From the NCBI GenBank assembly GCA_903920215.1, contig CAIXLG010000036.1:1-37419 (forward strand): DNA of 37,419 bases, given 5' to 3'. This document shows positions 2,210-33,931 of this stretch, piece by piece; position 1 is the stretch's first letter; each line of letters starts with the position of its first letter. This stretch comes from an uncultured Chlorobiaceae bacterium. GTDB taxonomy: Bacteria > Bacteroidota > Chlorobiia > Chlorobiales > Chlorobiaceae. The notes beneath the pieces were generated by a model, which made no database searches, had not been told where the DNA came from, and was given only the letters and a program-made list of their open reading frames with translations. Made by a program: the position numbers and the translations under genes.

Positions 2210-2257
2210 ATGCATGGAAGCATAACCGGTTATCCCATCTTCAACAAAGGAGAACCC

Positions 2258-6682: not shown

Positions 6683-6704
6683 ACAATGGAAATTTAATCT
6701 CAGC

Positions 6705-8433: not shown

Positions 8434-8741
8434 GTCGCCAATGTAGTTGAAGCCATGGGAAAGAGCCTGACCTTTGGTATCCGAGAACATAAAAAGCGCG
8501 TATCAAAATGTCAGAAACCGTATTGGTCGAACTCCAAACAGTAGATGGATACTATGCGCAAGCCGACTTGTTAGCTGGTCGGCTTTGCTTTTGATCGCAA
8601 TATATGGACTCACAACAAAAAAAAGAAGAACACATCAATAAGCTTTAACTCATTATTATTGTTTATTGAGCAAAAATTTAACAGGATATTCTATTTCAAT
8701 AATGTAAGTTCTTGTAGATTTCCTTAATAAAAGACTTGATA
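8434..8741. other. Gap between precursor and B gene, with a hairpin
   Basis: About 300 bases without a convincing gene. A 29-codon frame from ATG 8452 has no support. A strong hairpin at 8558-8592 may attenuate transcription between the precursor and maturation genes. DNA becomes markedly AT-rich after about 8600. Confidence 0.5.
8558..8592 (+). terminator. Hairpin after the lasso precursor gene
   Basis: GCAAGCCGAC (8558-8567) pairs with GTCGGCTTTGC (8578-8588, one bulged T) around a ten-base loop, followed by TTTT. It could be a terminator or attenuator that gives more precursor than enzyme mRNA, a common arrangement in RiPP operons. Confidence 0.65.
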
Positions 8742-9491
8742 ATGTATTTTCACCCTAACAAATATATTTATCTAACTTATTTCAATGATGAAATAATAGC
8801 TCTTGATTTACAAAAAGATCAATATATTTTTTTATCACAATTTTCTGAGGTTATATATTTTGCTTTAAATAATGAATTCAAATATGTACAAGATAAATAT
8901 GTGTTAGCTGGTAATAATGATAACCACATGCCTGATGATTTTAATAATGCAATTAAATATTTGAGAGAGATAGGGGTTTTATCAAAGATTAATTATGATT
9001 ATTCATCTGCTATTCAATTGAAAAAAACCAATTTCTCTGCTGGAGCACCAAATATTGACTGGCGAATATCTATTGGTGATTTAGATATCAAGGTCAAAAT
9101 ATCAATGATCTTTGAGGCTTACGTTTTGCTTATAAAAGTATATTTTATTATTAATATATTTGGATTTTATAGTCTAATAAAAGCTATAAAAAGAAAGAAT
9201 ATTGGGTGTGTTAGAAAAGATGCCAAAGAATTTGATATTCTTGCTACTGCTTTAAATCAGGCATGCTTCTATTTTCCGATAAAAACCAAATGTCTTGAAT
9301 GGTCAGCGGCACTAACCTTTATGGGGCTAAGAAGAAAATGGAAATGTAATCTTGAAATAGGAGTGCAAAATTTACCCTTCGCAGCACATGCATGGGTAAA
9401 AGCTGATGATAAGGTAATAGCTGACAGCCACAATTTACCAGAAACTTTATCAGTTATTCTATCAGAACCTTTTTTGATAAGGAGTAATTAA
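8742..9491 (+). CDS. Lasso peptide B protein: RRE (B1) fused to transglutaminase-like leader peptidase (B2)
   Basis: 249 residues from ATG 8742; a TTG two codons earlier is also possible. Residues 1-90 resemble the PqqD-like RiPP recognition element that binds the leader. Residues about 160-249 are the transglutaminase-like cysteine protease domain, with Cys184 in KCLEWSAAL, the LEIGVQNLPFAAHAWV motif with His216, and Asp228 as the likely third catalytic residue. A hydrophobic linker lies at about 121-145. It should bind the precursor leader and cleave after Lys46. The fused B1-B2 form is the McjB-type arrangement of proteobacterial clusters. Its stop abuts the GTG of the cyclase gene, so translation is probably coupled. 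Composition is AT-rich compared with the flanking chromosome, suggesting transfer. Confidence 0.9.
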   Translation: MYFHPNKYIYLTYFNDEIIALDLQKDQYIFLSQFSEVIYFALNNEFKYVQDKYVLAGNNDNHMPDDFNNAIKYLREIGVLSKINYDYSSAIQLKKTNFSAGAPNIDWRISIGDLDIKVKISMIFEAYVLLIKVYFIINIFGFYSLIKAIKRKNIGCVRKDAKEFDILATALNQACFYFPIKTKCLEWSAALTFMGLRRKWKCNLEIGVQNLPFAAHAWVKADDKVIADSHNLPETLSVILSEPFLIRSN

Positions 9492-11288
9492 GTGTTTATT
9501 GCAGGCTTTTTTAACCAGGTTTCTGATAATATATTCAGTAAATTAGATGCTATTGTAGGGGACAAAATATGTGGAGAGAGGGTTTATTTTAAGAATAAAC
9601 TAGTAAGTATTGTTGTCGGAAAAACATCTTCTTCTGTAGATCAAGGCAGAATAATAAGCCTTGATAATATTTTATTGGTAGGCAAGGTCTTTAGTAAAAT
9701 AAGTTTTCATTCAATAACAAAAGAAGATTTAGAGAAACAATCATCAATACCTAATAATCTTTTTGTAAATAAATACTGGGGTAACTATATTTATGTAAGA
9801 GTAAAAGATAATCAAGTAACAGTACTTCGAGATCCTGTAGGGCAAACCCCATTGTTCTATACTAAATTAGATTCAGGAGAATACTTATTTTCATCTGAGA
9901 TTGAAACCTTGGTTGATATGTTGAAAACCCGCCCTGGATTTAATTGGAAATATTTTTCTTCTTACGCATTACATGCATTTATTACAACAGAACAAACAGC
10001 TTTTAATGAAATTTATGAGCTGCCACATGGGTGTCAAATCTCCTACAACTCTACAAAGGGAATTACGGATACTTCTATAGTCTGGAACCCACTAAACTAT
10101 TTCAGTGGCTATAAAGGCTCGGAAAATGCAATGAATAATATTGTAAATATAACTTCAAATGTTATTGAAAGTTGGACTAATAGCGCCGATGTAATATCCC
10201 TAGACTTTTCAGGGGGCACTGACTCTACAGCTATTCTTTTGTTATTAAATAAGATACTAAACAAGAATAAAGAGATAAGGCTAATAAATCAATATCATCC
10301 TGACGTTTCGTCTTCTGATGAAAGGAAGTATGCACGTGCGATAGCAATGGACTTAGGCCTTCATTTAATAGAGTTTGATCATTCGGATAGTTTACCGTAT
10401 GACCCTGCCGTGAAATCAGCGCGATTTAAACCTAATTGGCCAACATCAATCTTATCCTATTTGAAAGTTAACAATGATATAAGTTCTTTGTTAGAAGGAA
10501 GTAAGAATGTTACCTATATGAGCGGACACGGAGGAGATCATATATTTATGTGTCCTCCTCCAGTAACATCTCTTTGTGATTACTTAATTGAAAAAGGTGG
10601 AAAAGAATTTAATACAAAAGCAATGGAGCTATATGCCATATTTCGCGAGCCGTTATCTTCAATGGCAAGCAATATACTTAAAGGCTTCATTTCTTATTAT
10701 TTTCACTCACAGTACACCCAATCATTTTATGCTATCAACAAAATCAAAAGCGCCCCTTGGTTTAATAAAGAAGTCTATTTGTTAGAAAAGCAAATGCATT
10801 ACCATCCTTTTTTTGATAATGAAAAAACCACTAAGAGCTTGCCTGGAAAATTTTGGCTTATTGAGGGCATATACAGCGGTTTATCTACTATAAAGACAGA
10901 TATAAGGGATGATGGAACTAACCCAATATTTTTTCCTTTATTTTCGCAGCCACTATTAGAACTCGCGTTATCTATACCCACCTATGAGTCATATCGCTAC
11001 GGGCACAATAGATATCTTTTCAGAAAAGCTATAAGTGATACTTTCAAAAGTGATGCTGTTTGGAGACACGATAAGGGAGAAACTAGCGGCATTGAACAAA
11101 GGGGTATAAAAAGAAATGAAAAACGAATATTGGAGCTTTGTTTAGATGGGAATTTGGTGAAGCAAGGATTAGTAAACAAAGAAAAGCTGCACACAGGTAT
11201 GCTTAAGATAATGAATGGTCAAACGGATTACCAATGGGCAGTTACTGATATAATTTGTGCAGAAACATTTATAAATTTATGGAGCTAA
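9492..11288 (+). CDS. Lasso peptide C protein: asparagine-synthetase-like macrolactam cyclase
   Basis: 598 residues from GTG 9492, with AAGGAG about 8 bases upstream and directly after the TAA of the B gene. The N-terminal half follows the class II glutamine amidotransferase fold (ELPHGCQISY near 176-185), but residue 2 is Phe instead of the catalytic Cys, so it cannot release ammonia from glutamine. The C-terminal half is the ATP-dependent synthetase domain with PP-loop SGGTDS at 240-245. In lasso biosynthesis this enzyme adenylates the ring Glu or Asp side chain and joins it to the new N-terminus of the core. The acceptor would be Glu9 of the core encoded at 8377-8430. Length matches the family. 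Confidence 0.9.
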   Translation: MFIAGFFNQVSDNIFSKLDAIVGDKICGERVYFKNKLVSIVVGKTSSSVDQGRIISLDNILLVGKVFSKISFHSITKEDLEKQSSIPNNLFVNKYWGNYIYVRVKDNQVTVLRDPVGQTPLFYTKLDSGEYLFSSEIETLVDMLKTRPGFNWKYFSSYALHAFITTEQTAFNEIYELPHGCQISYNSTKGITDTSIVWNPLNYFSGYKGSENAMNNIVNITSNVIESWTNSADVISLDFSGGTDSTAILLLLNKILNKNKEIRLINQYHPDVSSSDERKYARAIAMDLGLHLIEFDHSDSLPYDPAVKSARFKPNWPTSILSYLKVNNDISSLLEGSKNVTYMSGHGGDHIFMCPPPVTSLCDYLIEKGGKEFNTKAMELYAIFREPLSSMASNILKGFISYYFHSQYTQSFYAINKIKSAPWFNKEVYLLEKQMHYHPFFDNEKTTKSLPGKFWLIEGIYSGLSTIKTDIRDDGTNPIFFPLFSQPLLELALSIPTYESYRYGHNRYLFRKAISDTFKSDAVWRHDKGETSGIEQRGIKRNEKRILELCLDGNLVKQGLVNKEKLHTGMLKIMNGQTDYQWAVTDIICAETFINLWS

Positions 11289-12866: not shown

Positions 12867-13373
12867 TTATCCAAGCCTGACTCTTAAATCGCGAAGCATT
12901 GCAAATGTATTAAGATACTCGACATTAAAAGCATCACAAACATTAGGAATAGGGATCCTTCTTCTTATAGTCGAATTATACTCCTCGTGCGTTACTACGA
13001 CATAATTGTAAACAGCAGCATAGGCAACTAACCAGGAGTCAGCCAGATCAAACCGGGCAAATTCAGCTTTTGCTGAGGGTGAGTACTGCACATGTCTTTG
13101 AGACCATACCATAATTTCAGCATATTTAGCAAGTACCAGGGCATCGTCACATGTCACAAAAGAATCAATAAATGACCCATTTATCCAATCAACTAATTGA
13201 TCAGAACCACGATTAATTTCATTCTTTACATGATCAATACTTTTTAATTTCTCATTATCAGCTTGAATTAACAATTTATCCCAAAATACAGGGGCAATAT
13301 CAAAGGCATAATAATGACGTGCGGCATTAATCAAGACATTGGCATCCAATAGAAATATTAAAGAGTTACTCAT
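12867..13373 (-). CDS. PIN-domain ribonuclease-like toxin (DUF4411 type)
   Basis: 168 residues. The N-terminal strand FLLDANVLINAARH carries the first acidic residue (Asp10). Further conserved acidic residues are in HVKNEINRG (Glu52) and FDLADSWLVAYA (Asp109, Asp112), and THEE lies near 128-131. This is the layout of PIN nucleases of the DUF4411 group, which are usually paired with an XRE/ImmA-type metallopeptidase. Its ATG overlaps the stop of the upstream gene by four bases (13370-13373), indicating translational coupling. It probably acts as an RNase toxin in the cytoplasm. Confidence 0.82.
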   Translation of the reverse strand: MSNSLIFLLDANVLINAARHYYAFDIAPVFWDKLLIQADNEKLKSIDHVKNEINRGSDQLVDWINGSFIDSFVTCDDALVLAKYAEIMVWSQRHVQYSPSAKAEFARFDLADSWLVAYAAVYNYVVVTHEEYNSTIRRRIPIPNVCDAFNVEYLNTFAMLRDLRVRLG

Positions 13374-14524
13374 ACTTTCTTCCCAAATATCTCATCAGCA
13401 TAAGTTTGAAATGTATCACGCTTCAATCCCGTTAAATGATAGGCTTCGGTATAAGCTGTTTTCCCCTCACGAACCGATTGAATCAACATTTGCCCAAAGC
13501 GGTTACCAATTCGAAGGTTCTGTGTAGGATAAAAATCACCACCACCGGCATCAGATTTTTTTTTCGCTGCAAGCTTAATCTCTCTGCTTTGCCAGTCACG
13601 ATAATAATGGAAAAAAACCTTTCTCTCTATAAGCCCAAGATCCAGGCATCGTCGTGCAGCAACAATCTCACTAACCTTAAAATGCCTTGCTATATTTTGA
13701 AAACGATTAGCATTGCCTCCAATTGCAGGCCAGAGATTTATCAGTAGTGTTGTTGGCACTAGAAATTCAGCGGCAATTTGGTTACAAACCATTTCGGCAG
13801 AATCAGCTGCAGGTTGCAGTCGACGTAAATCGAATGCAGCACTGATACCAAGCCAGAGGTGAGCCAGTTCATGAGCCAAGGTAAACATCTGCGCTGCTTT
13901 TCCATCTGCCCCATTGACAAAAACCAAGGGCGCATATTGGTCAACCAAGACGAATCCCCTGAATTCCTGAGGATCCAGTTTGCGAGAAGTGTTATTTCCA
14001 ACCACACCGTTAACCATAACCATAATTCCAGCCTCTTCAATCTTCCTCTCAAGCCCCCTTAATGCATCAGACCATGTTGGCTGACTTTTTGCCCAACCAT
14101 CATTAATGCCTAATACTTTCCTGATTTGGGCAGCAATATCTATGGGATTATCAGTAATTGATGCAGAGCCAATAAAAGGTAATGGAGCATGCCCCTGCTC
14201 AGTCAAGCAGTCCCGCATCCATGCCTGCCGTTGTTGCATCTTGTAAACGGTATCAAGAAGTTCAGGACTGAATTCTTGTACTGTCTCACTTGTCAATGTC
14301 CTGAAGTTTGTAATAGGTAAACTTTCTTCAGGTGGGCTTGTGAGTAATAAATATCCAAATGGAACCGCGGCAGCTTTTGCAAAATCCTGAAGTTGAAGAA
14401 AAGTTGGCTGAGCCGTTCCGCTAAGCCACGCGCCTATTTTTTTGAATTTATGTTCCAATTTCTCCTGTCGGCGAGACCGTTGTATCGCCCACTCAAGAAC
14501 TTGGGGAGTAATAGCAATCCGCAT
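13370..14524 (-). CDS. XRE/ImmA-IrrE family protein with HExxH metallopeptidase motif (antitoxin partner)
   Basis: 384 residues from ATG 14524; GTG 14530 would add two. The N-terminal 65 residues resemble a short HTH module (KIGAWLSGTAQPTFLQLQDF). The C-terminal ImmA/IrrE domain has the zinc motif HELAH at 218-222 within FTLAHELAHLWLG. ImmA cleaves repressors in other systems. Here, in front of a PIN gene with a four-base overlap, it is expected to control or neutralise the toxin. Such pairs (COG2856 with DUF4411) are found in mobile or variable regions, matching the surrounding remnants. Confidence 0.85.
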   Translation of the reverse strand: MRIAITPQVLEWAIQRSRRQEKLEHKFKKIGAWLSGTAQPTFLQLQDFAKAAAVPFGYLLLTSPPEESLPITNFRTLTSETVQEFSPELLDTVYKMQQRQAWMRDCLTEQGHAPLPFIGSASITDNPIDIAAQIRKVLGINDGWAKSQPTWSDALRGLERKIEEAGIMVMVNGVVGNNTSRKLDPQEFRGFVLVDQYAPLVFVNGADGKAAQMFTLAHELAHLWLGISAAFDLRRLQPAADSAEMVCNQIAAEFLVPTTLLINLWPAIGGNANRFQNIARHFKVSEIVAARRCLDLGLIERKVFFHYYRDWQSREIKLAAKKKSDAGGGDFYPTQNLRIGNRFGQMLIQSVREGKTAYTEAYHLTGLKRDTFQTYADEIFGKKV

Positions 14525-14647
14525 TACCACATACCAAATAAAATTTCGAAGGAAAACGGCAGAAATATTTTAATACTCAAAGCCACTGTAGGGAGCGTCT
14601 CCCAATTTAACAAAAACATTGAGTATTCTGGTGAAAGTGTACCACTG

Positions 14648-22078: not shown

Positions 22079-22530
22079 TTCAAAAAACGCTATCCGCCTT
22101 CATCTTTGTGCGGATTGTCAGTCATGCTTTGATTGCCTTTATTTCATCAGACCCTGGCGGGTGAGTGGTTGATAGTCCAGCAAAAAAAAGCACCGGTCAG
22201 GCGCGGAATTCCAACTGCCGCCAAATTCAAAACCGCGTTAACAGCTTCGACTGCACTTGACCTCAGTTTCCACCCCCTTGCCAAGATTCATCCGCACAAC
22301 TCTATATCCGTTCCGCCTTCAACCTGAACAGATTTTAATACTGCACCAATCCAGTTATTGTTACCGGTATAAGTGAAGTTCTCCGACCTCTTATCCCACC
22401 CGGATAATAAACCTCTCTCTCTATGGCTGTATTGAATAATGCACCTTGCCAAATAGCAGATAATTGAAATATGCAACCACAGGGGTGTATTTAAAGTTGC
22501 CAAGTGCTTGTTATTACACAAAAATTTCAT
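22079..22530. other. Remnant region upstream of the sigma-54 promoter
   Basis: No intact gene. It holds copy B of the diverged repeat (22141-22268). An open minus-strand frame at 22288-22593 has no domain, and its 5' end runs over the sigma-54 promoter, so I treat it as chance. Confidence 0.45.
22141..22268. repeat. Diverged repeat, copy B (partner at 14648-14905)
   Basis: Two blocks, 22141-22182 and 22217-22268, match the copy at 14648-14905, with a shorter spacer. See that entry for the alignment. Confidence 0.6.
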
Positions 22531-22546
22531 TGGCATGAGAGTTGCA
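22531..22546 (+). promoter_or_regulatory. Sigma-54 promoter (-24/-12)
   Basis: TGGCATGAGAGTTGCA matches the consensus TGGCACG-N4-TTGCW at every defined position except one (T for C), with exact GG/GC spacing. The predicted start of transcription is near 22557, about 38 bases before the ATG at 22595. Two sigma-54 activators (NtrC-type) are encoded in this window. Confidence 0.85.
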
Positions 22547-22594
22547 GAATTAAATGTGTCTTCAGATAAAGAATCGGTGAAACAAGGAGGCAAT

Positions 22595-22825
22595 ATGACA
22601 GATGATTTGATTCTTGTTCGGTGGGGAACTCTTGGGGATAGAGAAGGGTGGCGTGTTGAGTATCTGAAAAAAAGCCCCGGCGGAAAATATGAGTTTGTTT
22701 ACGGAAGTGAAAGTCCCTACTTCCCTGTCAATGTTGATCAATTTGGGCCAATTCAGGAGGACCTTTTACTCAATGCGCTCAGAGCTGAATTTCCCCATTC
22801 TAAAATCAAAATCGAACTTGAATAA
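22595..22825 (+). CDS. Small acidic protein preceding the PII gene (paralogue at 23468)
   Basis: 76 residues from the ATG after AAGGAGG (22583-22589 region); a longer frame from 22508 would run across the sigma-54 promoter and is rejected. The protein starts MTDDLILVRWGTLGDREGWR and ends in FPVNVDQFGPIQEDLLLNAL and a short tail. The pattern FP-x-x-V-x-x-FGP-x-x-ED-x-L-x-x-x-L is shared with the 75-residue protein at 23468-23695. Family not recognised; no TM or signal. The sigma-54 promoter and the PII gene 103 bases downstream suggest a role in nitrogen signalling, for example as a PII partner. Confidence 0.75.
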   Translation: MTDDLILVRWGTLGDREGWRVEYLKKSPGGKYEFVYGSESPYFPVNVDQFGPIQEDLLLNALRAEFPHSKIKIELE

Positions 22826-22928
22826 GGGAGAATTCCGGGAGAGATTGATGTCGCGAGAACACACCGCTTTTTTCAACTTTTTTGATCAGAACTGAATCTT
22901 GTTGTTATAACCAAACCAAAATAAAACC

Positions 22929-23333
22929 ATGAAAAAAATTGAGGCTATCATTCGGGCAAGCAAGTATGAAGAGTTGAAGCAAGCTCTCCATGAGATTGAT
23001 GTTGATTTCTTTTCCTGGTGGGACGTTACCGGCCAGGGTAATGACACAAAATTCAAAAAAGAAATCTTCCGGGGGAGTATCAGAGAGACGTCGCTCATTT
23101 CCAGGCGATTACTATCAATCGTTGTGCGCGACATTAATTTCGAGAAAACCATCAAGTGTATTTTAAAGCATGCGCCGACCGGAGAGGTTGGAGACGGCAA
23201 GATCTTTGTCTCTGAGATTTCAGGAGCCTACAGAATCCGGACTGGTGAAAGCGGTGATGAGTCACTGTTCATTAAAGACTCATCATTACATGCATATGAT
23301 TTCCATGAATCATCAGCAGCAGCTCAACGTTAG
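22929..23333 (+). CDS. PII-family signal transduction protein (divergent T-loop)
   Basis: 134 residues. MKKIEAIIRASKYEELKQAL at the start and TGEVGDGKIFV with AYRIRTGE near 95-115 are the PII signatures (B-loop and C-terminal strand), so it should be a trimer binding ATP/ADP and 2-oxoglutarate. The T-loop differs from GlnB/GlnK: WDVTGQGNDTKFKKEIFRG has Phe47 where Tyr51 of E. coli GlnB is uridylylated, so control by GlnD-type modification is unlikely. The C-terminus is about 20 residues longer than GlnB. No ammonium transporter gene is adjacent; instead it sits next to the end of the kdp locus. Probably transcribed from the sigma-54 promoter at 22531. Confidence 0.88.
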   Translation: MKKIEAIIRASKYEELKQALHEIDVDFFSWWDVTGQGNDTKFKKEIFRGSIRETSLISRRLLSIVVRDINFEKTIKCILKHAPTGEVGDGKIFVSEISGAYRIRTGESGDESLFIKDSSLHAYDFHESSAAAQR

Positions 23334-23346
23334 GAATCCTATGGTG

Positions 23347-23379
23347 AGGCGAGTTCTGTAAGAACCCTGGAACTCGCCT
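23347..23379. terminator. Hairpin after the PII gene
   Basis: AGGCGAGTTC (23347-23356) and GAACTCGCCT (23370-23379) are perfect ten-base complements around a 13-base loop. There is no T-run directly after it, so it may be a transcript-stabilising or weak terminator structure between convergent genes. Confidence 0.6.
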
Positions 23380-23467
23380 TATGAGGTCATTTCATCCAAC
23401 CAGTTAGTTGCAGCTGGTTTGATAGTGATACCCTATCTTGCCCAGTAACATATGAATAAAAATCATC

Positions 23468-23695
23468 TCAAAACTTCAGGCAGATTTCCGCAGAAGGGAA
23501 GGTGGTCTTAAGCGAATAGATTAATGTGTCCTCCTCAAACGGTCCAAACTCCTCGACCTTGATCGGGAAATCGGGGGTTCCGCTTTTGAGGACTACTGCG
23601 AACTCTCCTTCGTTGTTTTTTTGCATAACATCAACGCACCACCGTTCTGGAATTGATTGAGTATCCCACCACGCGATTACCTGTTCCTTTGACAT
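23468..23695 (-). CDS. Small acidic protein, paralogue of the 76-residue protein at 22595
   Basis: 75 residues, starting MSKEQVIAWWDTQSIPERWC after GGAGG. The C-terminal half, FPIKVEEFGPFEEDTLIYSL, aligns with FPVNVDQFGPIQEDLLLNAL of the other copy, and both begin with a short charged segment and Trp-containing strand. It converges on the PII gene and lies 76 bases downstream of the last kdp gene on the same strand, so it could be in the kdp transcript or have its own promoter. Function unknown. Confidence 0.75.
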   Translation of the reverse strand: MSKEQVIAWWDTQSIPERWCVDVMQKNNEGEFAVVLKSGTPDFPIKVEEFGPFEEDTLIYSLKTTFPSAEICLKF

Positions 23696-23771
23696 CTTTC
23701 CTCCATGTTAACATTTAAAGCAAAATTTAGTGTATTCTGTTATTCTGTAATGTGTTAACACAACTGGCACT

Positions 23772-25451
23772 TCATTTCTTTTTCTGTTCAGCTAACCAGT
23801 ATCGAATAATGTGCATGACCTCCTCTTCTGAGCCGGCTTGACGCATGGAGGCTCGCCATTGGCTGTCTCCAGCCATTTTGCAGAGCATCCCAAGCAGCTT
23901 GACGTGACTGTCAGGTTGAGTGACTGGCGAGAGCATGAGAAACATAAGTGTTGCCGTATTGTTGGATCCGGGATCATAAATTCCGAGCTTGCTGACCCCG
24001 ATTGCAAGAACGGCAGATTCAATCCCTTCAAGCCGGGCATGGGGTATGGCAATTTCTTCGCCGATAAAGGTTACTCCCTGTTTTTCCCGTTCGAGTATCG
24101 CTCTCCATGCATAATCGAACGGAATCGAGGAGTGCGTCGTGCAAAGCTTTTCGAGCAACTGGCGAATGGCAACATCCTTTTCAAGCACCTCATTCCAGAG
24201 CAGAACATTGGCCTGAATAATCGCACTCTCCCTGTCGTCCGGCGGCGGCTGTTTACTCGGCAGATTGAAAGGAATACCCGAGAGATAATCGGCGGCGCGT
24301 TTTTTCTTTTGGAGATTATCCTGGCTGCGAATGTCAGGCACGATTATGGTGATCCCTAGACTCTCCTGTATCAGTCGTTCTGTTATACTGCGCCTGCCGA
24401 TCAAACGGTGCCAGAGGGGAACCTGTTTTCCTGAATTGCCGACCACAATATTGCCAACTCTGTACTCTCTGGCGAACTGAAGGACGGTTGAAACAAAATC
24501 GTTGCCCTTGTAGGTAAAAACGGTTGCTCCGAGCTGCTGGGCAAGGGCAAGAGTATTGGACAATTTGCGCTGGATGCCGGCATCGATCATTTCAGGGCTT
24601 TCTGAAAGGCTCTGGACATAGACGGCATACCAGTTGCGGTTCAGTCGGCCGGCGATTCGTGAAGCATATCGCAGCAAGGCCGCGCTGTTTTCCGACTTTG
24701 AACTGAGGCAGACCATAACCTGATCCGGACTGGTTGACGGCTCATTCTGCTCGGGGCTGCTGCGCTTCGAGTCGATTTGGGCAACCACCTCACGAAGGGT
24801 CAGTTCTCTGAGCTGTTCAAGATTTTCCTGCCTGAAAAAATTCAGGAGCGCCGACTCAGTCTTGCCTGCCATATAGACTTTTCCCTCTTTCATGCGCTGC
24901 AAGAGGTCATCCGTTGCGATATCGATATTAACCAGTTGATCAGCCTGAATCACCATCCGGTCGGGTAAACGCTCCTTGACCTTGACGCCGGTGGCCTGCT
25001 CGACGGTTTCATAGAGGCTTTCCAGATGCTGGATGTTGAGTGTCGAAACCACATGAATCCCGGCCGCCAGAATCTCCTCGACATCCTGATACCGCTTCGC
25101 ATTCCTGGAGCCAGGAACATTGGTATGGGCAAGTTCGTCGACCATTATCACTGCCGGATGACGCTTTATAATGGCATCGATGTCCATTTCCGTAATTTCA
25201 ATGCCCCGATAGGTCAACTTTTTCCGGGAAATGATATCAAGGCCATCGAGCAGGGCTTCCGTCTCTTTTCTGCCGTGTGTTTCGACAATACCCACAACGA
25301 CATCGACCCCTTGTCCGAGAAGACGCTTTGCTTCGAGCAGCATCTGGTAGGTTTTTCCTACGCCGGCGCAGTACCCGAGGTAAATCCTCAGGCGACCGCG
25401 CTGCGAGCGTTGTATCAAGCGCAGAAAGCTATCCGCCCTGTTTTCTTCCAT
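23772..25451 (-). CDS. Transmitter-less KdpD sensor fused to USP and PTS EIIA domains (copy 2, kdp locus)
   Basis: 559 residues, start ATG with GGAGG upstream. KdpD N-terminal domain about 15-225: Walker A GYCAGVGKT (26-34), DELAHTN (105-111), both canonical. USP domain about 245-385. EIIA domain about 420-555 with His471 in IPHAR. It lacks the membrane, GAF and kinase parts of E. coli KdpD (894 residues). The last gene of the kdp run, it follows kdpC by 21 bases. Known biology: EIIA-Ntr binds KdpD and controls kdp expression in E. coli. Here the two partners are one polypeptide. It likely acts on the KinB-like kinase at 30060-31934 or directly on the pump; which one is not shown. Confidence 0.92.
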   Translation of the reverse strand: MEENRADSFLRLIQRSQRGRLRIYLGYCAGVGKTYQMLLEAKRLLGQGVDVVVGIVETHGRKETEALLDGLDIISRKKLTYRGIEITEMDIDAIIKRHPAVIMVDELAHTNVPGSRNAKRYQDVEEILAAGIHVVSTLNIQHLESLYETVEQATGVKVKERLPDRMVIQADQLVNIDIATDDLLQRMKEGKVYMAGKTESALLNFFRQENLEQLRELTLREVVAQIDSKRSSPEQNEPSTSPDQVMVCLSSKSENSAALLRYASRIAGRLNRNWYAVYVQSLSESPEMIDAGIQRKLSNTLALAQQLGATVFTYKGNDFVSTVLQFAREYRVGNIVVGNSGKQVPLWHRLIGRRSITERLIQESLGITIIVPDIRSQDNLQKKKRAADYLSGIPFNLPSKQPPPDDRESAIIQANVLLWNEVLEKDVAIRQLLEKLCTTHSSIPFDYAWRAILEREKQGVTFIGEEIAIPHARLEGIESAVLAIGVSKLGIYDPGSNNTATLMFLMLSPVTQPDSHVKLLGMLCKMAGDSQWRASMRQAGSEEEVMHIIRYWLAEQKKK

Positions 25452-25472: not shown

Positions 25473-26075
25473 CTATCGGGGAACCATAGTGGTTTTCCCG
25501 GCTGCATCGAGTTCCATGTTCAACACCAGCACATTGACCAAGCCCTCTCCTGACCCCAGGATCTTTTGTCCGTCAGCGTGGCGACGTATTGCCGCCTCGA
25601 CATCTGAAAGAGCCATCCCTCTGGCATGAGCAACCCTCGACGCTTGAAAAAGAGCTGCCCGAAGGGTAATGAGGGGATCAAGCCCGCTGCCGGATGTTGC
25701 AGCAAGATCCGCAGGAAGAGGGTGCCGGGAGTCGGCACCATACTCTTTAACTGTTTTCAGCGCACGTTCGCGCACTTCGGGACCTGCAGGAGAGAGATTG
25801 CTTCCCCCTGCTGCTTCTGCGGTGTACTTTACAGCCGATGGACGTGGCCAGAAATAGCCCGGCTTCGTGAATGCCTGGGCAATAAGCCTGCTGCCGACAA
25901 CTTTTCCTGCCTGGTTTCGAACCAGTGAGCCTGAAGCGGCCTCTGGCACTGCAAAGTGGGCAAAGCTGAATATGAAGAGCGGATAGAGCCCACTGCACAG
26001 CACAATAGTCGCAAGTGCAATTCTGAGCGATGCCGCAATATTGGCTCCTGTATCTTCCATAAGTGTGGTTTTCAT
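25473..26075 (-). CDS. kdpC: KdpC, potassium-transporting ATPase C subunit
   Basis: 200 residues, typical of KdpC. One N-terminal TM helix (about 17-38, ALATIVLCSGLYPLFIFSFA) followed by a periplasmic domain with SLVRNQAGKVVGSRLIAQAF, FWPRPSAVKYTAEAAGGSNL and SGLDPLITLRAALFQASRVA, all KdpC hallmarks. It stabilises the KdpFABC complex and raises nucleotide affinity. The ATG has AAGGAG upstream and lies 14 bases after kdpB. Confidence 0.95.
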   Translation of the reverse strand: MKTTLMEDTGANIAASLRIALATIVLCSGLYPLFIFSFAHFAVPEAASGSLVRNQAGKVVGSRLIAQAFTKPGYFWPRPSAVKYTAEAAGGSNLSPAGPEVRERALKTVKEYGADSRHPLPADLAATSGSGLDPLITLRAALFQASRVAHARGMALSDVEAAIRRHADGQKILGSGEGLVNVLVLNMELDAAGKTTMVPR

Positions 26076-26089
26076 GTGATGGTACTCCT

Positions 26090-28207
<2,118 letters not shown>

Positions 28208-29881
28208 TTATTGAATAGAAGTCGAAAGATAGTCGGCTACCGGTCCAAGCACTGCGACAGGCATGAAGAGCAGTGCGCCGATCAGAAGCACGCTTCCAAG
28301 AATGACGACAGCAAAAAGCGGGGTATCAATGCGAAGCGTCCCCGTGGTTTCCGGAACAGGTTTTTTTGCAGCCATTGAGCCTGCGATTGCCAGCGGTAGA
28401 ATGATGGGGATAAAACGCCCCAGCAGCATGACCAGTCCTGTGGCTATATTCCATGGCACTGTACCGTCGCCGAGGCCTTCGAATCCCGAGCCGTTGTTGG
28501 CTGCCGCCGAACTGAACTCATAGAGAATCTCACTGAATCCATGTGCGCCCTTATTGAGCACGGTGCCTGCACCCCAGGTGGTGGATGCGAACAGGGCGGT
28601 CCCGACAAGGATCAGTAGCGGATGGACCAGCAGCGCTAGCAGTGCAAGCTTCATTTCATGTGTTTCCACCTTTCGGGCACAGTATTCGGGTGTCCTTCCG
28701 ACCATCATGCCGCAGATGAAGACTCCGACGATAATGAAGATGAACATGTTGATGAATCCTACCCCCACGCCACCGAAAATCACATTCAGCCACATGCCTG
28801 CGAGCGGCACCAGGCCGGTTAGCGGATTGAGGCTGTCGTGCATGCAGTTGACTGAGCCATTGCTGGTAGCTGTTGTGACGGCAGCCCACATTGCAGCTGT
28901 TCCGGAAGGTCCGAAACGCAGCTCTTTACCTTCGAGATTCGATACGCTCTCAATTGGCAATCCCTTGAAAGCCATAGCAGGAGAGCTTTCCAGATTGAGC
29001 GCGATGCCCGATTTCAGGACGAGCAGCAGAAGCATTACAGAAAAAATCACTGCGGCATGGCGCATCCGACCGGTTATGCGTCCGAACATCCATACTGTTG
29101 CCATAGCAATCAGAGGAATGCTTATACATTCGATATAATTGGTCAGAAACGATGGGTTTTCGAAAGGATGCGTCGAGTTGGGACCGAAAAATCCGCCTCC
29201 GTTCGTGCCGAGCTGTTTGATGGCTACCATTGCTGCCACCGGTCCCCGGGCGATGGTCTGCATCGCTCCTTCGAGCGTTCTGGCTGCGGCTGCTCCTTCA
29301 AATGTCATGGGCACTCCTCCAACAACGAGGAGAAGAGCTACCACTATCGAAAGCGGCAGCAGAATGAAGAGGGTTGAGCGGAGCAGATCGCGGTAAAAGT
29401 TGCCGACAAGTGTTCTGCCTGCCAGTGACCTGGCCAATGCGGTAAAGCAGGCGATGCCCGTTGCGGCTGAAACAAACTGCAGCCAGGTCAGGGCGAAAAG
29501 CTGGGAAAAATAGCTCATCGAAACTTCACCGGCGTAATGCTGCAGGTTGGTGTTGGTCACAAATGAAGCCGCCGTATTGAAAATAAGGCTTGCTTCAAGA
29601 GGGCCCCTGCCGTCAGGATTGAGTGGAAGCATCTGCTGCAGCGCAAGCATGAGGACAACAGCAGTGAACATGATGGCGTTGAAGAAGAGCATGGAGATCA
29701 GGTAGCCTTTCCAATCCTGTTCTCTGTCGAGCATCCTTCCGCCGGTTTTTCTCAGAAGGATTTCCATCCGGCCATCACTGGAGTTGATCGGAGGATTCAT
29801 GACTGCTGTCATGAAACGGCCCAGCGGCCATGAAAGCAGAACAGGCAAGGCAATAAAGAGAAGCAGCATGAGTAGTTGCAT
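28208..29881 (-). CDS. kdpA: KdpA, potassium-translocating subunit
   Basis: 557 residues from ATG 29881, the same length as the E. coli protein. The open frame extends 40 codons further upstream, but that part lies over kdpF in another frame and lacks a ribosome site; AAAGGAG (29889-29895) precedes the chosen ATG. Selectivity-filter loops are visible: NTAASFVTNTNLQHYAGE, LGTNGGGFFGPNSTHPFENP, TTATSNGSVNCMHDSLNPL and AAANNGSGFEGL. It selects K+ and forms the pore of the KdpFABC complex in the inner membrane. Confidence 0.96.
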   Translation of the reverse strand: MQLLMLLLFIALPVLLSWPLGRFMTAVMNPPINSSDGRMEILLRKTGGRMLDREQDWKGYLISMLFFNAIMFTAVVLMLALQQMLPLNPDGRGPLEASLIFNTAASFVTNTNLQHYAGEVSMSYFSQLFALTWLQFVSAATGIACFTALARSLAGRTLVGNFYRDLLRSTLFILLPLSIVVALLLVVGGVPMTFEGAAAARTLEGAMQTIARGPVAAMVAIKQLGTNGGGFFGPNSTHPFENPSFLTNYIECISIPLIAMATVWMFGRITGRMRHAAVIFSVMLLLLVLKSGIALNLESSPAMAFKGLPIESVSNLEGKELRFGPSGTAAMWAAVTTATSNGSVNCMHDSLNPLTGLVPLAGMWLNVIFGGVGVGFINMFIFIIVGVFICGMMVGRTPEYCARKVETHEMKLALLALLVHPLLILVGTALFASTTWGAGTVLNKGAHGFSEILYEFSSAAANNGSGFEGLGDGTVPWNIATGLVMLLGRFIPIILPLAIAGSMAAKKPVPETTGTLRIDTPLFAVVILGSVLLIGALLFMPVAVLGPVADYLSTSIQ

Positions 29882-30059: not shown

Positions 30060-31934
30060 TCATGCCCGTCCGTTTATCGGAAGCTCACCGGTTGAAACCT
30101 GATGTTTATGGATCGGCAACGTGAAGCTGAACAGGGATCCCTTACCTGGCTGGCTTTGTGAAAAGACCATCCCGCCTTGAGCTTCGACGAGCTCCTTGAC
30201 TATGGAAAGCCCCAAGCCGACACCGGAACGCACATCCTGACCAGGCGCCCTGAAAAACTGCTCAAACAAATAAGCCATGTGTTCAGAAGCAATTCCTGAT
30301 CCAGTATCTTCGACGAAGAATCGGACAAAGTTCTCCACCCTTCCGGCTCCTACCCTCACGGTTCCGCCGGGGCTGGTAAATCGCAGAGCATTGGAAAAGA
30401 GATTTGCAAAAACATGCCGGATACCTACCGGGTCAGCAAATACATCCGGCAAGTCATCGGCTATGGCCTCCGTAAGGGTGACGTTGCGGTCTTTAGCCTC
30501 ACTCAAAAAAGGCTCCATGCTTTCCCGAACAAGAAGGGAAGGCTGCACTGGTCGGGGTTCAAGGTATGCCTTGCCCGATTCGATACGGTTGAGATCGAGC
30601 AAATCATCGAGCATTTCGACAAGGCGCTCACAATCTTCCCGGGCTCCAACCATCAATTCGGTCTGTTGCGTATTCAGGACACCTACCTCTTCTTCAAGCA
30701 GCAGGTGAATCGACATGCGCAGCGAGGTCAGTGGAGTTTTGAGCTGATGCGACACCGTGGAGAGCATCCCCTGCTTCATCTCCTGCTGTTCGTGCATTTG
30801 CGTCACATCGCTCATTATCAGAATTGTGCCGTCGCCATCACCTGATTCCGGATCTGATGTTGAGATGATTGGCACTGCTTCAGGCTTGAAGAAATATTCC
30901 TTGTTGCTGACGAATTGCTGCACATAACCCTTGTCGTCAAGGGAAGCAGGTTTCCGGGTAGCAAACGATTTGTCAAGCAGCCCCGAAATCCAGGAAAATG
31001 GAAGTTCTCTTGCCGAAACTCCCGGTTTCAGGCCAAAAAGCTGGACTGCCGTTTCGGTTGAAACCCTGACCTCTCCTTGTGAATCAAGCACAGCAACCGG
31101 CACAGGTAATACTCGGAACACATCTTCTGTCAACTTGCGGCTCCGGATCAGATTCGCCATATCACTGTTACGATTCTGACGGAGAGCAATCAGCATGGCA
31201 TTGAACGAACGCGACAGCTGACCTACTTCATCATGGGCAGCCGTCTGCAGAACAACTTCAAGATTGCCGCGGCGGATCTCTTCTGTCGTTTCAATCAAAC
31301 GCCGTAAAGGATGGAACACCCAACGGTGAATTTGATAACTCAGCAGTATGGAGAAGAGAACGCTGGCCAAACTGACGGAAAGCATCCTCCATCGGGCTGA
31401 AATCGCCAGGCTTTGTGTCGCATTTTTTTCTGTAATCATGTTTGCCTGATTCATATTGAGAATCTCCTGGGCAACTTTTTTGATTTCGTTGAATACTGGT
31501 ACCTGCCTTGTGAAATAGAGCGTCCGGCGATCCGGCTCGCTTATTGAACTCTCCATAACCTTGGGAAGTATGCTGAAATACTCTTTTGACAGATGCTGAA
31601 TCCGATCAGCACGCTCCTGCTCGCCCGGCAAGGTGATAAGGTGCAGTTCGCGATCAAGTGCATTGATGAACTTCGCTTTATGTTTGTTCACCATTATCTG
31701 CATATCCTTGTCGTGATTGCCGAGAAACGAGTTAAGCTCCGCACTGTTGATACTGTCCAGCGCATCTTTCATATCCTGAGAGGCCACCACGCTCTGGTAA
31801 TTCTCTTTCAGTACGATGGCCAGGGATTTTCCGAGCATGTCGATCTGGCGGATGGTCACAAAGCTGATTGCTGCAACGATGACCAGCATGCCGCTCAATC
31901 CGAACAAAAGTTTCTGTCTGATTCCGATTTTCAT
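30060..31934 (-). CDS. KinB-like membrane histidine kinase of the kdp locus
   Basis: 624 residues. TM1 about 9-29, extracytoplasmic region to about 180, TM2 about 185-203, HAMP about 205-258, PAS-like about 265-385, HisKA with His396 in STVSHQLKTPLTSL, HATPase with NLFSNALRF, EDTGSGI and GVGLGLSIVKE. It replaces the kinase half that is missing from the KdpD-like protein and has no KdpD similarity itself. Probable partner: the NtrC-type regulator directly upstream (gap about 190 bases). Paralogue of the kinase at 246-2078. kdpF begins 86 bases downstream. Confidence 0.92.
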   Translation of the reverse strand: MKIGIRQKLLFGLSGMLVIVAAISFVTIRQIDMLGKSLAIVLKENYQSVVASQDMKDALDSINSAELNSFLGNHDKDMQIMVNKHKAKFINALDRELHLITLPGEQERADRIQHLSKEYFSILPKVMESSISEPDRRTLYFTRQVPVFNEIKKVAQEILNMNQANMITEKNATQSLAISARWRMLSVSLASVLFSILLSYQIHRWVFHPLRRLIETTEEIRRGNLEVVLQTAAHDEVGQLSRSFNAMLIALRQNRNSDMANLIRSRKLTEDVFRVLPVPVAVLDSQGEVRVSTETAVQLFGLKPGVSARELPFSWISGLLDKSFATRKPASLDDKGYVQQFVSNKEYFFKPEAVPIISTSDPESGDGDGTILIMSDVTQMHEQQEMKQGMLSTVSHQLKTPLTSLRMSIHLLLEEEVGVLNTQQTELMVGAREDCERLVEMLDDLLDLNRIESGKAYLEPRPVQPSLLVRESMEPFLSEAKDRNVTLTEAIADDLPDVFADPVGIRHVFANLFSNALRFTSPGGTVRVGAGRVENFVRFFVEDTGSGIASEHMAYLFEQFFRAPGQDVRSGVGLGLSIVKELVEAQGGMVFSQSQPGKGSLFSFTLPIHKHQVSTGELPINGRA

Positions 31935-32127
31935 GATTCAATCTTTATCTGCTCTTTTACAAATAACGTGCCAGACACAGAATCAAGGAAAACCGGGTAG
32001 ATGCGGTCGATAAAGAGGGGATTCGGGGTGTAAATTGCACGGTCGCCAAGGGCGTGAGAGTGCAAAATTCAACGTCCACCAGTGGGCAGCGTCAAAATTG
32101 AAACAAGAGGGGGAAAGGGGAGTGCGA
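31935..32127. promoter_or_regulatory. Intergenic region between regulator and kinase with an inverted repeat
   Basis: AAATTGCAC (32032-32040) and GTGCAAAATT (32060-32069) form an imperfect inverted repeat with a 19-base spacer. TTGCAC/GTGCAA half-sites resemble the TGCAC-type half-sites used by NtrC-family regulators. No sigma-54 promoter with proper spacing was found here. Confidence 0.3.
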
Positions 32128-33495
32128 TTAAAGCCCGAACTGCTTGCGTTTTCTCCAAAGTGTTGCCTTGTCGATGCCCAGTACCTCAGCAGATTCCTGT
32201 ACTGAGGAGGTCGAAGCAAGTACCCTGCGAATATGCAGCTCTTCGAGAGTTTCCAGCGTTATTCTATCACCGATTTTAATCTGTGGCGGCAAGGTGGAGG
32301 CAATTGTTTCGGGTAGAAGTTCTTCACCGATAACAGCGGTCGTACAAAGGATCACCGCCCGTTCAACCACATTTCGGAGCTCGCGGATGTTGCCCGGCCA
32401 GCCATAATCGCGAAAAATGCGCAATACCTCAGGGCTGAATCCCTGAATGGCCTTGTGGTTCTGGGCATTGAAAAATGCAAGCATGTTTCCGGCAATCTCT
32501 TCGACATCCCCTGAACGCTCGGCCAGGGAAGGAAGCGTTATCTGAATAACATTGAGGCGATAATAGAGATCCTCGCGGAAACGACCTGAAGCCACGGCGG
32601 ACTCCAGATCAACATTTGTGGCTGCAATAATACGAACATTTGCTTTTCGGGTGTGCTGATCGCCGACACGCTCATATTCCCGCTCCTGAATGAAACGCAG
32701 CAGTTTCGACTGGATTGGAAGCGGAAGTTCACCTATTTCATCAAGGAAAAGGGTTCCACCCTCGCAACTTGCGACACGCCCGGGATTGTCTCGAAGAGCG
32801 CCGGTAAACGCTCCCTTTACATGACCGAACAGCTCGCTTTCAAGAAGCTCCTGGTTCAGTGACGGGCAGGAAATAACACCGAATGGTTTGTCGGACCTAT
32901 GACTCCATGAGTGGATGAATCGGGCAATCATGGTTTTTCCCGTACCACTCGGTCCCCTAAGCATCACAACCGCATCGGAAGCTGAAACCTGTCGGGATAG
33001 TTCTATCACCCTTTGCATTGGCGGGTAACTGGAGCGCAGTGATGCATCCGGATCTTTACGGTTCAGATCGTCCTGAAGAAGGGTGATGCGCTGTTCAAGC
33101 ATCCGGATTGAAGCAAGTCTTTCAAGAACGAGTTTGAGCTGACCCGGCATAAATGGTTTTGGCAGATAATCTGCAGCCCCGCGTTTCATCGCTTCAACAG
33201 CTGTATCCACTGATGCGAAAGCCGTTATGACGACAATCTTCAGCCATGGTGACTGGGCCAGCAGAGAAGACACCAGATCAAGTCCACTCTCCAGGCCTAA
33301 CCGGATATCTACGAATGCAATATCGAATATCTGTAACCGCGCCTCAGTCAAGGCATCCTGAATGTTGGATACCGTAGTGACTTTGTGATTCCTGATCTCG
33401 AAAAACATCATCATGGTTTTTCTGATGTTGCTCTCGTCATCAACGATCAAGACATTCATTGTGGCAGTGGACATCTCTTTTCCTTCACTCTTCAT
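32128..33495 (-). CDS. NtrC-family sigma-54 response regulator of the kdp locus
   Basis: 455 residues. REC domain with phospho-acceptor Asp63 in FVDIRLGLESG; AAA+ domain with Walker A GPSGTGKT, GAFTGA loop (contact with sigma-54) and Walker B GTLFLDEIGE; C-terminal Fis-type HTH (ESAEVLGIDKATLWRKRKQF). It is the first gene of the kdp run and takes the place of the OmpR-type KdpE. ATG 33495 has AGGTGA upstream; a second in-frame ATG (33474) with GGA-AAGAG is also plausible. If it drives kdp, a sigma-54 promoter would be expected; I found none upstream of kdpF or of this gene. Confidence 0.92.
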   Translation of the reverse strand: MKSEGKEMSTATMNVLIVDDESNIRKTMMMFFEIRNHKVTTVSNIQDALTEARLQIFDIAFVDIRLGLESGLDLVSSLLAQSPWLKIVVITAFASVDTAVEAMKRGAADYLPKPFMPGQLKLVLERLASIRMLEQRITLLQDDLNRKDPDASLRSSYPPMQRVIELSRQVSASDAVVMLRGPSGTGKTMIARFIHSWSHRSDKPFGVISCPSLNQELLESELFGHVKGAFTGALRDNPGRVASCEGGTLFLDEIGELPLPIQSKLLRFIQEREYERVGDQHTRKANVRIIAATNVDLESAVASGRFREDLYYRLNVIQITLPSLAERSGDVEEIAGNMLAFFNAQNHKAIQGFSPEVLRIFRDYGWPGNIRELRNVVERAVILCTTAVIGEELLPETIASTLPPQIKIGDRITLETLEELHIRRVLASTSSVQESAEVLGIDKATLWRKRKQFGL

Positions 33496-33616: not shown

Positions 33617-33931
33617 TCAGGGGTGAGTAACACTGTTAAGCCGTTTCCATACCTCTTCGATGATAAATCCCGATGCTTCATCACGGTCATTCATGAAAAG
33701 CAGCCTTTCGAAAGCATTATGCCTTGAGCGGGCACATGCTTTCAATAAAGCATCGTTGCCTTGATACAGGCCGAACTCGTTGCGGATTACCCACCCCAGA
33801 CCAAAATGAAAATTGATCAACTCCTTTTCGTGAGTATTCCTGAGCTCGCTTTTTTCCTCTTCACTCATTGAGGCGATAATACGCTCTATCGCTTTTTCTA
33901 TCGTCTTTGGCCATAGTGATGGATCAGGCAT
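33617..33931 (-). CDS. DUF6794-type small cytoplasmic protein
   Basis: 104 residues, starting MPDPSLWPKTIEKAIERIIA and containing SELRNTHEKELINFHFGLGW, IRNEFGLYQGNDALL and EASGFIIEEVWKRL. The pattern fits DUF6794 proteins as I remember them (function unknown). No TM or signal. Same strand as the kdp locus, 121 bases upstream of the regulator, probably a separate transcript. Confidence 0.65.
   Translation of the reverse strand: MPDPSLWPKTIEKAIERIIASMSEEEKSELRNTHEKELINFHFGLGWVIRNEFGLYQGNDALLKACARSRHNAFERLLFMNDRDEASGFIIEEVWKRLNSVTHP

Follow-up and report, generated by a model that had tools for sequence, protein, structure and literature searches.

Introduction

PII proteins are textbook nitrogen sensors. 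The gene for a PII protein usually travels with that of the ammonium channel AmtB, which the PII protein GlnK binds, and a sigma-54 promoter in front of a PII gene is classically a nitrogen arrangement. For potassium, Escherichia coli employs the KdpD/KdpE pair, in which KdpD carries a characteristic sensor domain, and EIIANtr also regulates potassium systems.

The window analysed here is a stretch of 37,419 nucleotides from an uncultured Chlorobiaceae bacterium (contig CAIXLG010000036.1 of assembly GCA_903920215.1). It carries a gene for a small protein of 76 amino acids (SP1) followed by a PII gene. A potassium-uptake cluster adjoins this pair downstream, on the opposite strand, and reaches up to position 33495 (Table 1). 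In its own direction the order is NtrC-type regulator, histidine kinase, kdpA, kdpB, kdpC, KdpD-EIIA and a second small protein, SP2. The names kdpA, kdpB and kdpC are those we presume from recognising the sequences. Like E. coli KdpD, the KdpD-EIIA protein (559 amino acids) has the KdpD sensor domain. Unlike the canonical KdpDE system, with its full-length KdpD kinase and OmpR-type KdpE, the window has a KdpD that lacks the kinase domains and is fused to EIIA, along with a kinase and a regulator of other types.

The closest described arrangement is that of Desulfovibrio vulgaris (DVU3334-3339), where the regulator DVU3334 acts on kdp and KdpD is split, with a sensor+Usp protein apart from the kinase, according to the portions of the accounts used here (PMC3333781, PMC4641369). 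The window likewise has a sigma-54-dependent NtrC-type regulator with a GAFTGA motif beside kdp, on which it would act, and has its kinase and its KdpD sensor in two distinct proteins. In those same portions there is no mention of a PII, an SP-type protein or an EIIA fusion (PMC3333781, PMC4641369).

Links between PII-type proteins and potassium have been described, as far as the cited excerpts go. The Azospirillum brasilense PII protein GlnZ pulled down the potassium-channel regulator TrkA and also fished EIIANtr, the latter unconfirmed by pulldown, and the authors argue that each of the two ions, NH4+ and K+, leaks through the transporters of the other (PMC7646526). The window PII would similarly be tied to a potassium system. 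GlnZ is, in the part of the paper used, a general PII, unlike the dedicated PII copy of the window, which sits in a kdp regulon with a KdpD-EIIA fusion; by analogy, the EIIA domain on KdpD fits the ties of EIIANtr to K+ noted there (PMC7646526). PstA/DarA is a PII-like receptor of c-di-AMP, which is tied to potassium homeostasis; from the excerpts it has the PII fold in common with the window protein, which is a true P-II (PF00543) with the GlnK ATP motif (PMC4316997, PMC4475381). Finally, the archaeal small protein sP36 of Methanosarcina mazei acts with a PII on a transporter (AmtB1/GlnK1), and on the excerpt used it can be likened to SP by role alone, as a small protein plus a PII (PMC10714827). 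In a Geobacter paper (PMC2700814) we did not find a relevant passage.

Table 1. Positions of the SP1-PII unit, the adjoining kdp cluster and their promoter features in the window
Feature	Position	Strand	Remark
Upstream activator-like element 1 TTGAATAATGCAC	22432..22444	+	99 nt before sigma-54 site; kdp promoters have theirs at this position too
Upstream activator-like element 2 TTGAAATATGCAA	22464..22476	+	67 nt before sigma-54 site
Sigma-54 promoter-like site TGGCATGAGAGTTGCA	22531..22546	+	GG and GC ten bases apart
Small protein 1 (SP1), 76 aa, new family	22595..22825	+	predicted beta-beta-beta-alpha-beta
PII (GlnK-type, kdp-linked clade), 134 aa, C-terminal tail	22929..23333	+	Pfam P-II
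Small protein 2 (SP2), SP1 paralogue, final gene after kdp genes	23468..23695	-	
Kinase-less KdpD: KdpD sensor domain, Usp-like and PTS EIIA-2 domains	23772..25451	-	
kdpC	25473..26075	-	name by sequence recognition
kdpB	26090..28207	-	name by sequence recognition
kdpA	28208..29881	-	name by sequence recognition
Sensor histidine kinase (HAMP, HisKA, HATPase)	30060..31934	-	
Sigma-54-like site TGGCACGTTATTTGTA of kinase-kdp operon	31958..31973	-	
Weak second kdp-promoter element	32028..32040	-	67 nt before sigma-54 site; score 5.3 only
kdp-promoter upstream activator-like element TTGAATTTTGCAC	32060..32072	-	99 nt before sigma-54 site
NtrC-type response regulator (receiver, sigma-54 AAA+ with GAFTGA, Fis-type HTH)	32128..33495	-	

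Results

The SP1-PII unit and its sigma-54 site

An earlier note on this DNA had pointed to a sigma-54 site of exact spacing upstream of a 76-residue gene and a PII gene, and these are indeed present at the positions given in Table 1; SP2 and the kdp cluster had escaped it. The site has GG and GC ten bases apart in a TGGCAY..TTGCW context, the SP1 start codon lies 48 nt downstream of it, and an AAGGAGG precedes that ATG. With a gap between SP1 and PII of 103 nt in the window and about 100-190 nt across the SP1-PII loci, co-transcription of the two genes is no more than likely. A sigma-70 and terminator scan of 22300-23800 gave nothing above shuffles.

Within the window, TGGCAYRNNNNTTGCW is matched exactly at this site alone. 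Tolerating one mismatch raises the count to four (1.96 expected); near matches are about as common as chance, so the motif is not rare on its own and needs other support. Such support comes from the whole genome of 3.04 Mb, which has eight exact matches, one of them upstream of a nifH-like gene, against one for the reversed pattern, and a single-copy sigma-54 gene (PF04552, E 1.1e-54). It comes also from relatives, in which up to 350 nt upstream of each relevant gene were scored with weights of our own choice. Two of them (G005 and G045) have the site in the same place with a score of 21.9 of 21.9; in a third (G015) it is degraded (18.9). A sigma-54 promoter leading the small-protein and PII unit, as the earlier note proposed, is thus probable.

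A promoter architecture common to SP1-PII and kdp

Side-by-side reading of the promoters first drew our attention to a TTGAAWWWTGCA-like element. Elements of this type lie about 99 and 67 nt upstream of the sigma-54 site in both the SP1-PII and the kinase-kdp promoters, the weak second kdp element being scored as GTGTAAATTGCAC on the strand opposite the promoter. Matches to TTGAAWWWTGCAM number four in the window, where 0.14 are expected. In order to avoid circularity, an ab initio motif search was run from random start positions on 14 kinase-kdp promoters from genomes outside the clade of the window. It converged on TTGAAAAATGCAA with a total score of 291, compared with 144-161 for five shuffled sets, and the training sites fell at -99/-100 from the sigma-54 site in 11 of the 14 promoters, at -68 in two and at -199 in one (G049). 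The held-out promoters, of the kinase-kdp, SP1-PII, SP-kdpA and Nif11 types, had their best site at -96..-100 or -65..-69 in 17 of 17 cases, including four SP1-PII promoters, although the compared promoters share descent and the matches are therefore not independent.

Combining the two parts into one pattern (element-N84..91-sigma-54) gave 27 matches in 21 of 101 genomes, and none in all 101 for the reversed control. The genome of the window has exactly two, the SP1-PII and kinase-kdp promoters. By our assignment, 17 of the matches precede a kinase gene or kdpA (one, in G028, counted by its position behind a regulator at a contig end), four precede SP1-PII, two precede other SP genes and two are relics beside kdpB fragments (G038, G050). 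The last two lie at a contig end behind a permease gene (G042), probably also kdp, and inside a coding gene (G045:C51), by appearance a chance match. All 21 genomes have kdpA, which is carried by 29 of the 61 genomes of the genus, and none of the 32 kdpA-less genomes of the genus has a match; as these genomes are related, the Fisher value of 3.5e-10 is descriptive. The relic fragments lie in the kdp direction at about 6351-6700 (L107, G038) and 5603-6010 (L106, G050), each with a well-preserved kdp-type promoter of opposite orientation; both stand between PII and the kdp operon now present.

A sigma-54-like site at -39..-56 precedes 21 of the 24 kinase genes that stand ahead of kdpA, and in the other three (G035, G048, G058) the site precedes an SP gene between kinase and kdpA. 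Many of the kdp sites read TTGT, not TTGC, and the shuffle p-values of single sites are weak (0.00-0.12). Taken singly, the sites outscore shuffled sequence only modestly; their constant position is a stronger argument than the single-site scores.

At the left end of the contig a second histidine kinase (246-2078, +) and a second kinase-less KdpD-EIIA (2210-3883, +) are about 51-55% identical to their counterparts in the kdp cluster, and in another genome (G007) a kinase similar to the left-end one comes after an APC-type permease. Upstream of the regulator gene is a DUF6794 protein (33617-33931, -), to which a protein on another contig of the same genome is related (G000:C22, L075). Elsewhere in the window, genes for a transglutaminase-like and an asparagine-synthase-like protein lie side by side close to an ABC exporter (8736-11288, +; 4763-6682, -), in what we take to be a lasso-peptide type cluster, and a DUF4411 gene beside an IrrE/M78-type gene (12867-14530, -) has the arrangement of a toxin-antitoxin pair.

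A PII protein split from the amtB-paired GlnKs

The window PII matches the whole Pfam P-II profile (PF00543, E 4.2e-21, 75.7 bits with a cut-off of 25, profile positions 1-102 of 102) and matches 41 distinct PDB sequences (E<=0.01), of which almost every one bears the name PII or GlnK. The ATP-binding stretches TG..GDGKIFV and RIRTGE are intact (TGEVGDGKIFVSEISGAYRIRTGE), as is the T-loop arginine of the EI(F/Y)RG stretch. In the aligned stretch GQGNDTKFKKEIFRGSIRETS other residues occupy the places of Gln39 and Tyr51, which serve 2-oxoglutarate/Mg binding and uridylylation, respectively. The amtB-linked relatives differ likewise, and the protein stays in P-II because these residues are features of many, not all, PII proteins. 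A scan of a public genome collection, which serves naming only, returned mostly Bacteroidota GlnKs (48-65% identity) and three from Chlorobiaceae; judged by sequence, the wider type of the window PII is Bacteroidota GlnK (up to 65% identity).

While amtB lies next to the PII gene in eight relatives, it is absent from this place in the window. The six kdp/SP-linked PIIs (G000, which is the genome of the window, G005, G045, G015, G038 and G261) form one clade with support of 99/97 inside the amtB-linked GlnKs, so the window PII descends from an amtB-paired GlnK of the same family. The sister of this clade, the G050 PII, has kept amtB directly after it and is located within a kdp cluster. Compared with GlnK and its AmtB partner, the window PII has a kdp-type sigma-54 promoter, a C-terminal tail and distinct residues: at ten alignment positions no residue is common to the six kdp-linked and the eight amtB-linked PIIs, and four of these (42, 44, 50, 56) lie in or beside the T-loop. 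A C-terminal SSLHxxD stretch is found in five of the six kdp/SP-linked PIIs and not in the amtB-linked ones; the G261 protein ends before it. Upstream of amtB-linked PII genes (L067-L072) we observed a conserved AAAAAGGAGGT-like stretch; it begins no gene directly at the PII start, from which it is about 120-150 nt away, and may be a leader or tiny ORF.

The small proteins and their place at potassium-uptake loci

SP1 and SP2 are paralogues (32% identical, 0.6 kb apart). Neither matches a Pfam or NCBIfam family above cut-off or has a relative in the PDB. The SP profile gave a best E of 0.66 against the PDB. From a two-row alignment, AlphaFold2 predicts three strands, a helix and a strand with a mean pLDDT of 89.6; searching the PDB with this predicted fold (best E 0.026, TM 0.35) did not find a convincing relative. 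A VirB7-like lipoprotein was considered and dropped, its E-values of 0.04-0.2 falling below the cut-offs. Eighteen of 25 SP places were aligned, excluding a weak subfamily and contig-end fragments, and the invariant residues include W19, G30, F43-P44, F50-G51 and E55-D56. SP1 and PII are both under purifying selection; for SP1, dN/dS is 0.08-0.16 among the three closest pairs and 0.42-0.50 against G015.

Of the 61 genomes of the genus, 14 carry SP (with the weak subfamily included, 18 of 101 relatives), as do ten genomes of a second Chlorobiaceae genus; it is absent from the other genomes among 394 of the phylum. For the second genus, which makes up 10 of the 24 SP-bearing genomes, the contexts were read, while the statistics come from the first genus. 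There, SP lies inside kdp operons in 13 of the 14 genomes: it closes the operon in nine (G046 and G027 at contig ends) and sits between kinase and kdpA, or before kdpA, in four (G035, G008, G048, G058). In G030 a lone SP gene far from kdp has a sigma-54 site and both elements. Thirteen of the 14 SP genomes carry kdpA, against 16 of the 47 others (Fisher 1.2e-4); the one without it, G027, has a KdpD fragment at a contig end.

Directly upstream of a PII of this type, SP is found in five genomes from two genera. The earlier note had proposed a PII-associated factor, and the recurrence of the pair agrees with the co-occurrence that this implies. As a description of the family the term is too narrow, since SP is next to PII in only 4 of the 14 genomes of the first genus and in kdp operons in 13. 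Nor is SP a fixed partner: in G038 the gene ahead of PII, behind a sigma-54 site TGGCATGCCATTTGTA, encodes a Nif11-domain protein instead. The setting of the pair varies too. G015 has the order regulator-SP-PII-kinase-kdpABCD-SP, in G045 the SP1-PII pair and kdp are on different contigs, and in G261, of the second genus, kdp, kinase and regulator are followed by SP-PII with elements at -99 and -67, just downstream of an assembly gap.

Elsewhere in the second genus, SP ends kdp in two loci and in two genomes precedes an APC-type permease beside a regulator of the same kind; the remaining SP genes are found in other places. Pfam calls this permease an amino acid permease and NCBIfam has no match; by recognition we take it to be KimA-like. 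In several second-genus loci the sigma-54 or element calls are poor (L251, L254, the first copy in L259). At L249 and L250 (G117, G160) the SP gene faces genes for a PTS EIIA-domain protein and a P-type ATPase. Five weak homologues in the first genus (G056, G016, G038:C15, G043, G005:C105) lack the sigma-54 site as well as the elements and were kept apart as a different subfamily. A divergent SP-like subfamily (MGKQKV..DDPEDIYDALREEYPDAI; L108, L109, L110, L111, L116), also without a sigma-54 site, is preceded by a conserved TATTGCGCAC...GCGCAATCTCA inverted repeat.

Discussion

We consider it quite probable that SP1 and PII form a satellite operon within a potassium regulon that depends on sigma-54. 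As read from the DNA, the promoter architecture is shared, the PII has split from the amtB-paired GlnKs, and a paralogue of SP1 stands at the end of the kdp operon. The switch of SP1-PII is built like that of the neighbouring potassium pump, hence the pair probably has its use when potassium, not nitrogen, is scarce, and the best reading is that a duplicated GlnK and a small accessory protein were recruited into the potassium-starvation regulon.

The earlier note had placed the pair under nitrogen limitation. Under ordinary nitrogen control an NtrC/NifA-type regulator would act and PII would keep its nitrogen role, with the small protein as its partner. This accords with the classic pairing of sigma-54 with PII, with the exact sigma-54 site of the nifH-like gene in the same genome and with the adjacency of SP and PII in five genomes. 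But a sigma-54 site is absent within 350-400 nt of all eight PII genes that are followed by amtB (best 13.7-15.7 of 21.9) and from the two amtB-leading promoters of this genome, and neither the nifH promoter nor any of the genome's six remaining exact sigma-54 sites has the paired elements (best <=8.5, at scattered positions). As the elements of SP1-PII are those of kdp, we regard nitrogen control as improbable, and the nitrogen-limitation frame most probably does not hold. Mere local duplication, by which the SP1-PII promoter would be a hitch-hiking kdp-type copy of no functional meaning, could draw on the closeness of SP1 and SP2 and on the relic kdp promoters and kdpB pieces of G038 and G050. 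It strikes us as very hard to believe, since two genera retain the pair together with its promoter despite differing flanks, purifying selection acts on both proteins and the lone SP gene of G030 retains the elements far from kdp.

Another account grants that the kdp-type regulator drives transcription and has the PII act mainly on AmtB, not on Kdp: because K+ and NH4+ resemble each other, the use of AmtB would have to be altered under K+ shortage. In its favour are the G050 locus, a kdp cluster in which the sister PII gene still precedes amtB, the retained T-loop arginine and the other AmtB genes in the genome of the window. Against it, amtB is beside PII in none of the six kdp/SP-linked loci, and the ten separating positions, four of them in or beside the T-loop, set these proteins apart from the amtB-linked ones. 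We think it unlikely.

Within a potassium regulon, scarce K+ would lead the histidine kinase to phosphorylate the neighbouring NtrC-type regulator, which would then bind the paired elements and drive sigma-54 RNA polymerase at both promoters. The pairing of regulator and elements is inferred from neighbourhood and co-occurrence, and a response to potassium scarcity from the similarly arranged D. vulgaris system, which regulates kdp in the parts of its description used here (PMC3333781, PMC4641369). More speculatively, the PII, with its intact ATP motif and changed T-loop, may bind Kdp or the KdpD-EIIA sensor, much as GlnK does AmtB, and so inform the potassium system of the nitrogen or energy state, for example in order to restrict the entry of NH4+ or to adjust K+ uptake to glutamate, and SP1 and SP2 may be adaptors or modulators of K+ transport complexes. 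It is a tentative idea that a dedicated PII, derived from GlnK and freed from AmtB, and SP together gate the uptake of K+; produced solely in K+-starved cells, this gate would sense ATP/ADP and perhaps nitrogen state, throttle Kdp or KdpD-EIIA and couple the K+ and NH4+ economies as a potassium counterpart of GlnK.

What is new is a sigma-54 kdp regulon to which a GlnK copy of its own and a novel family of small proteins have been added; the parts are otherwise of known kinds. In the open-licence literature we recognised no description of a PII gene in a kdp regulon, or of SP, which is weak evidence of novelty as subscription journals lay outside this scope.

The genomes appear to record the steps of this recruitment, from PII-amtB alone, through PII-amtB inside a kdp cluster (G050), to a PII without amtB under a kdp-type promoter. 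A suspected link between the ammonium and potassium economies thereby gains a testable genetic locus, for which K+ limitation is the predicted relevant condition, and not one that the nitrogen reading suggested. Finally, a new family of small proteins can be named for the potassium-uptake loci of green sulfur bacteria.
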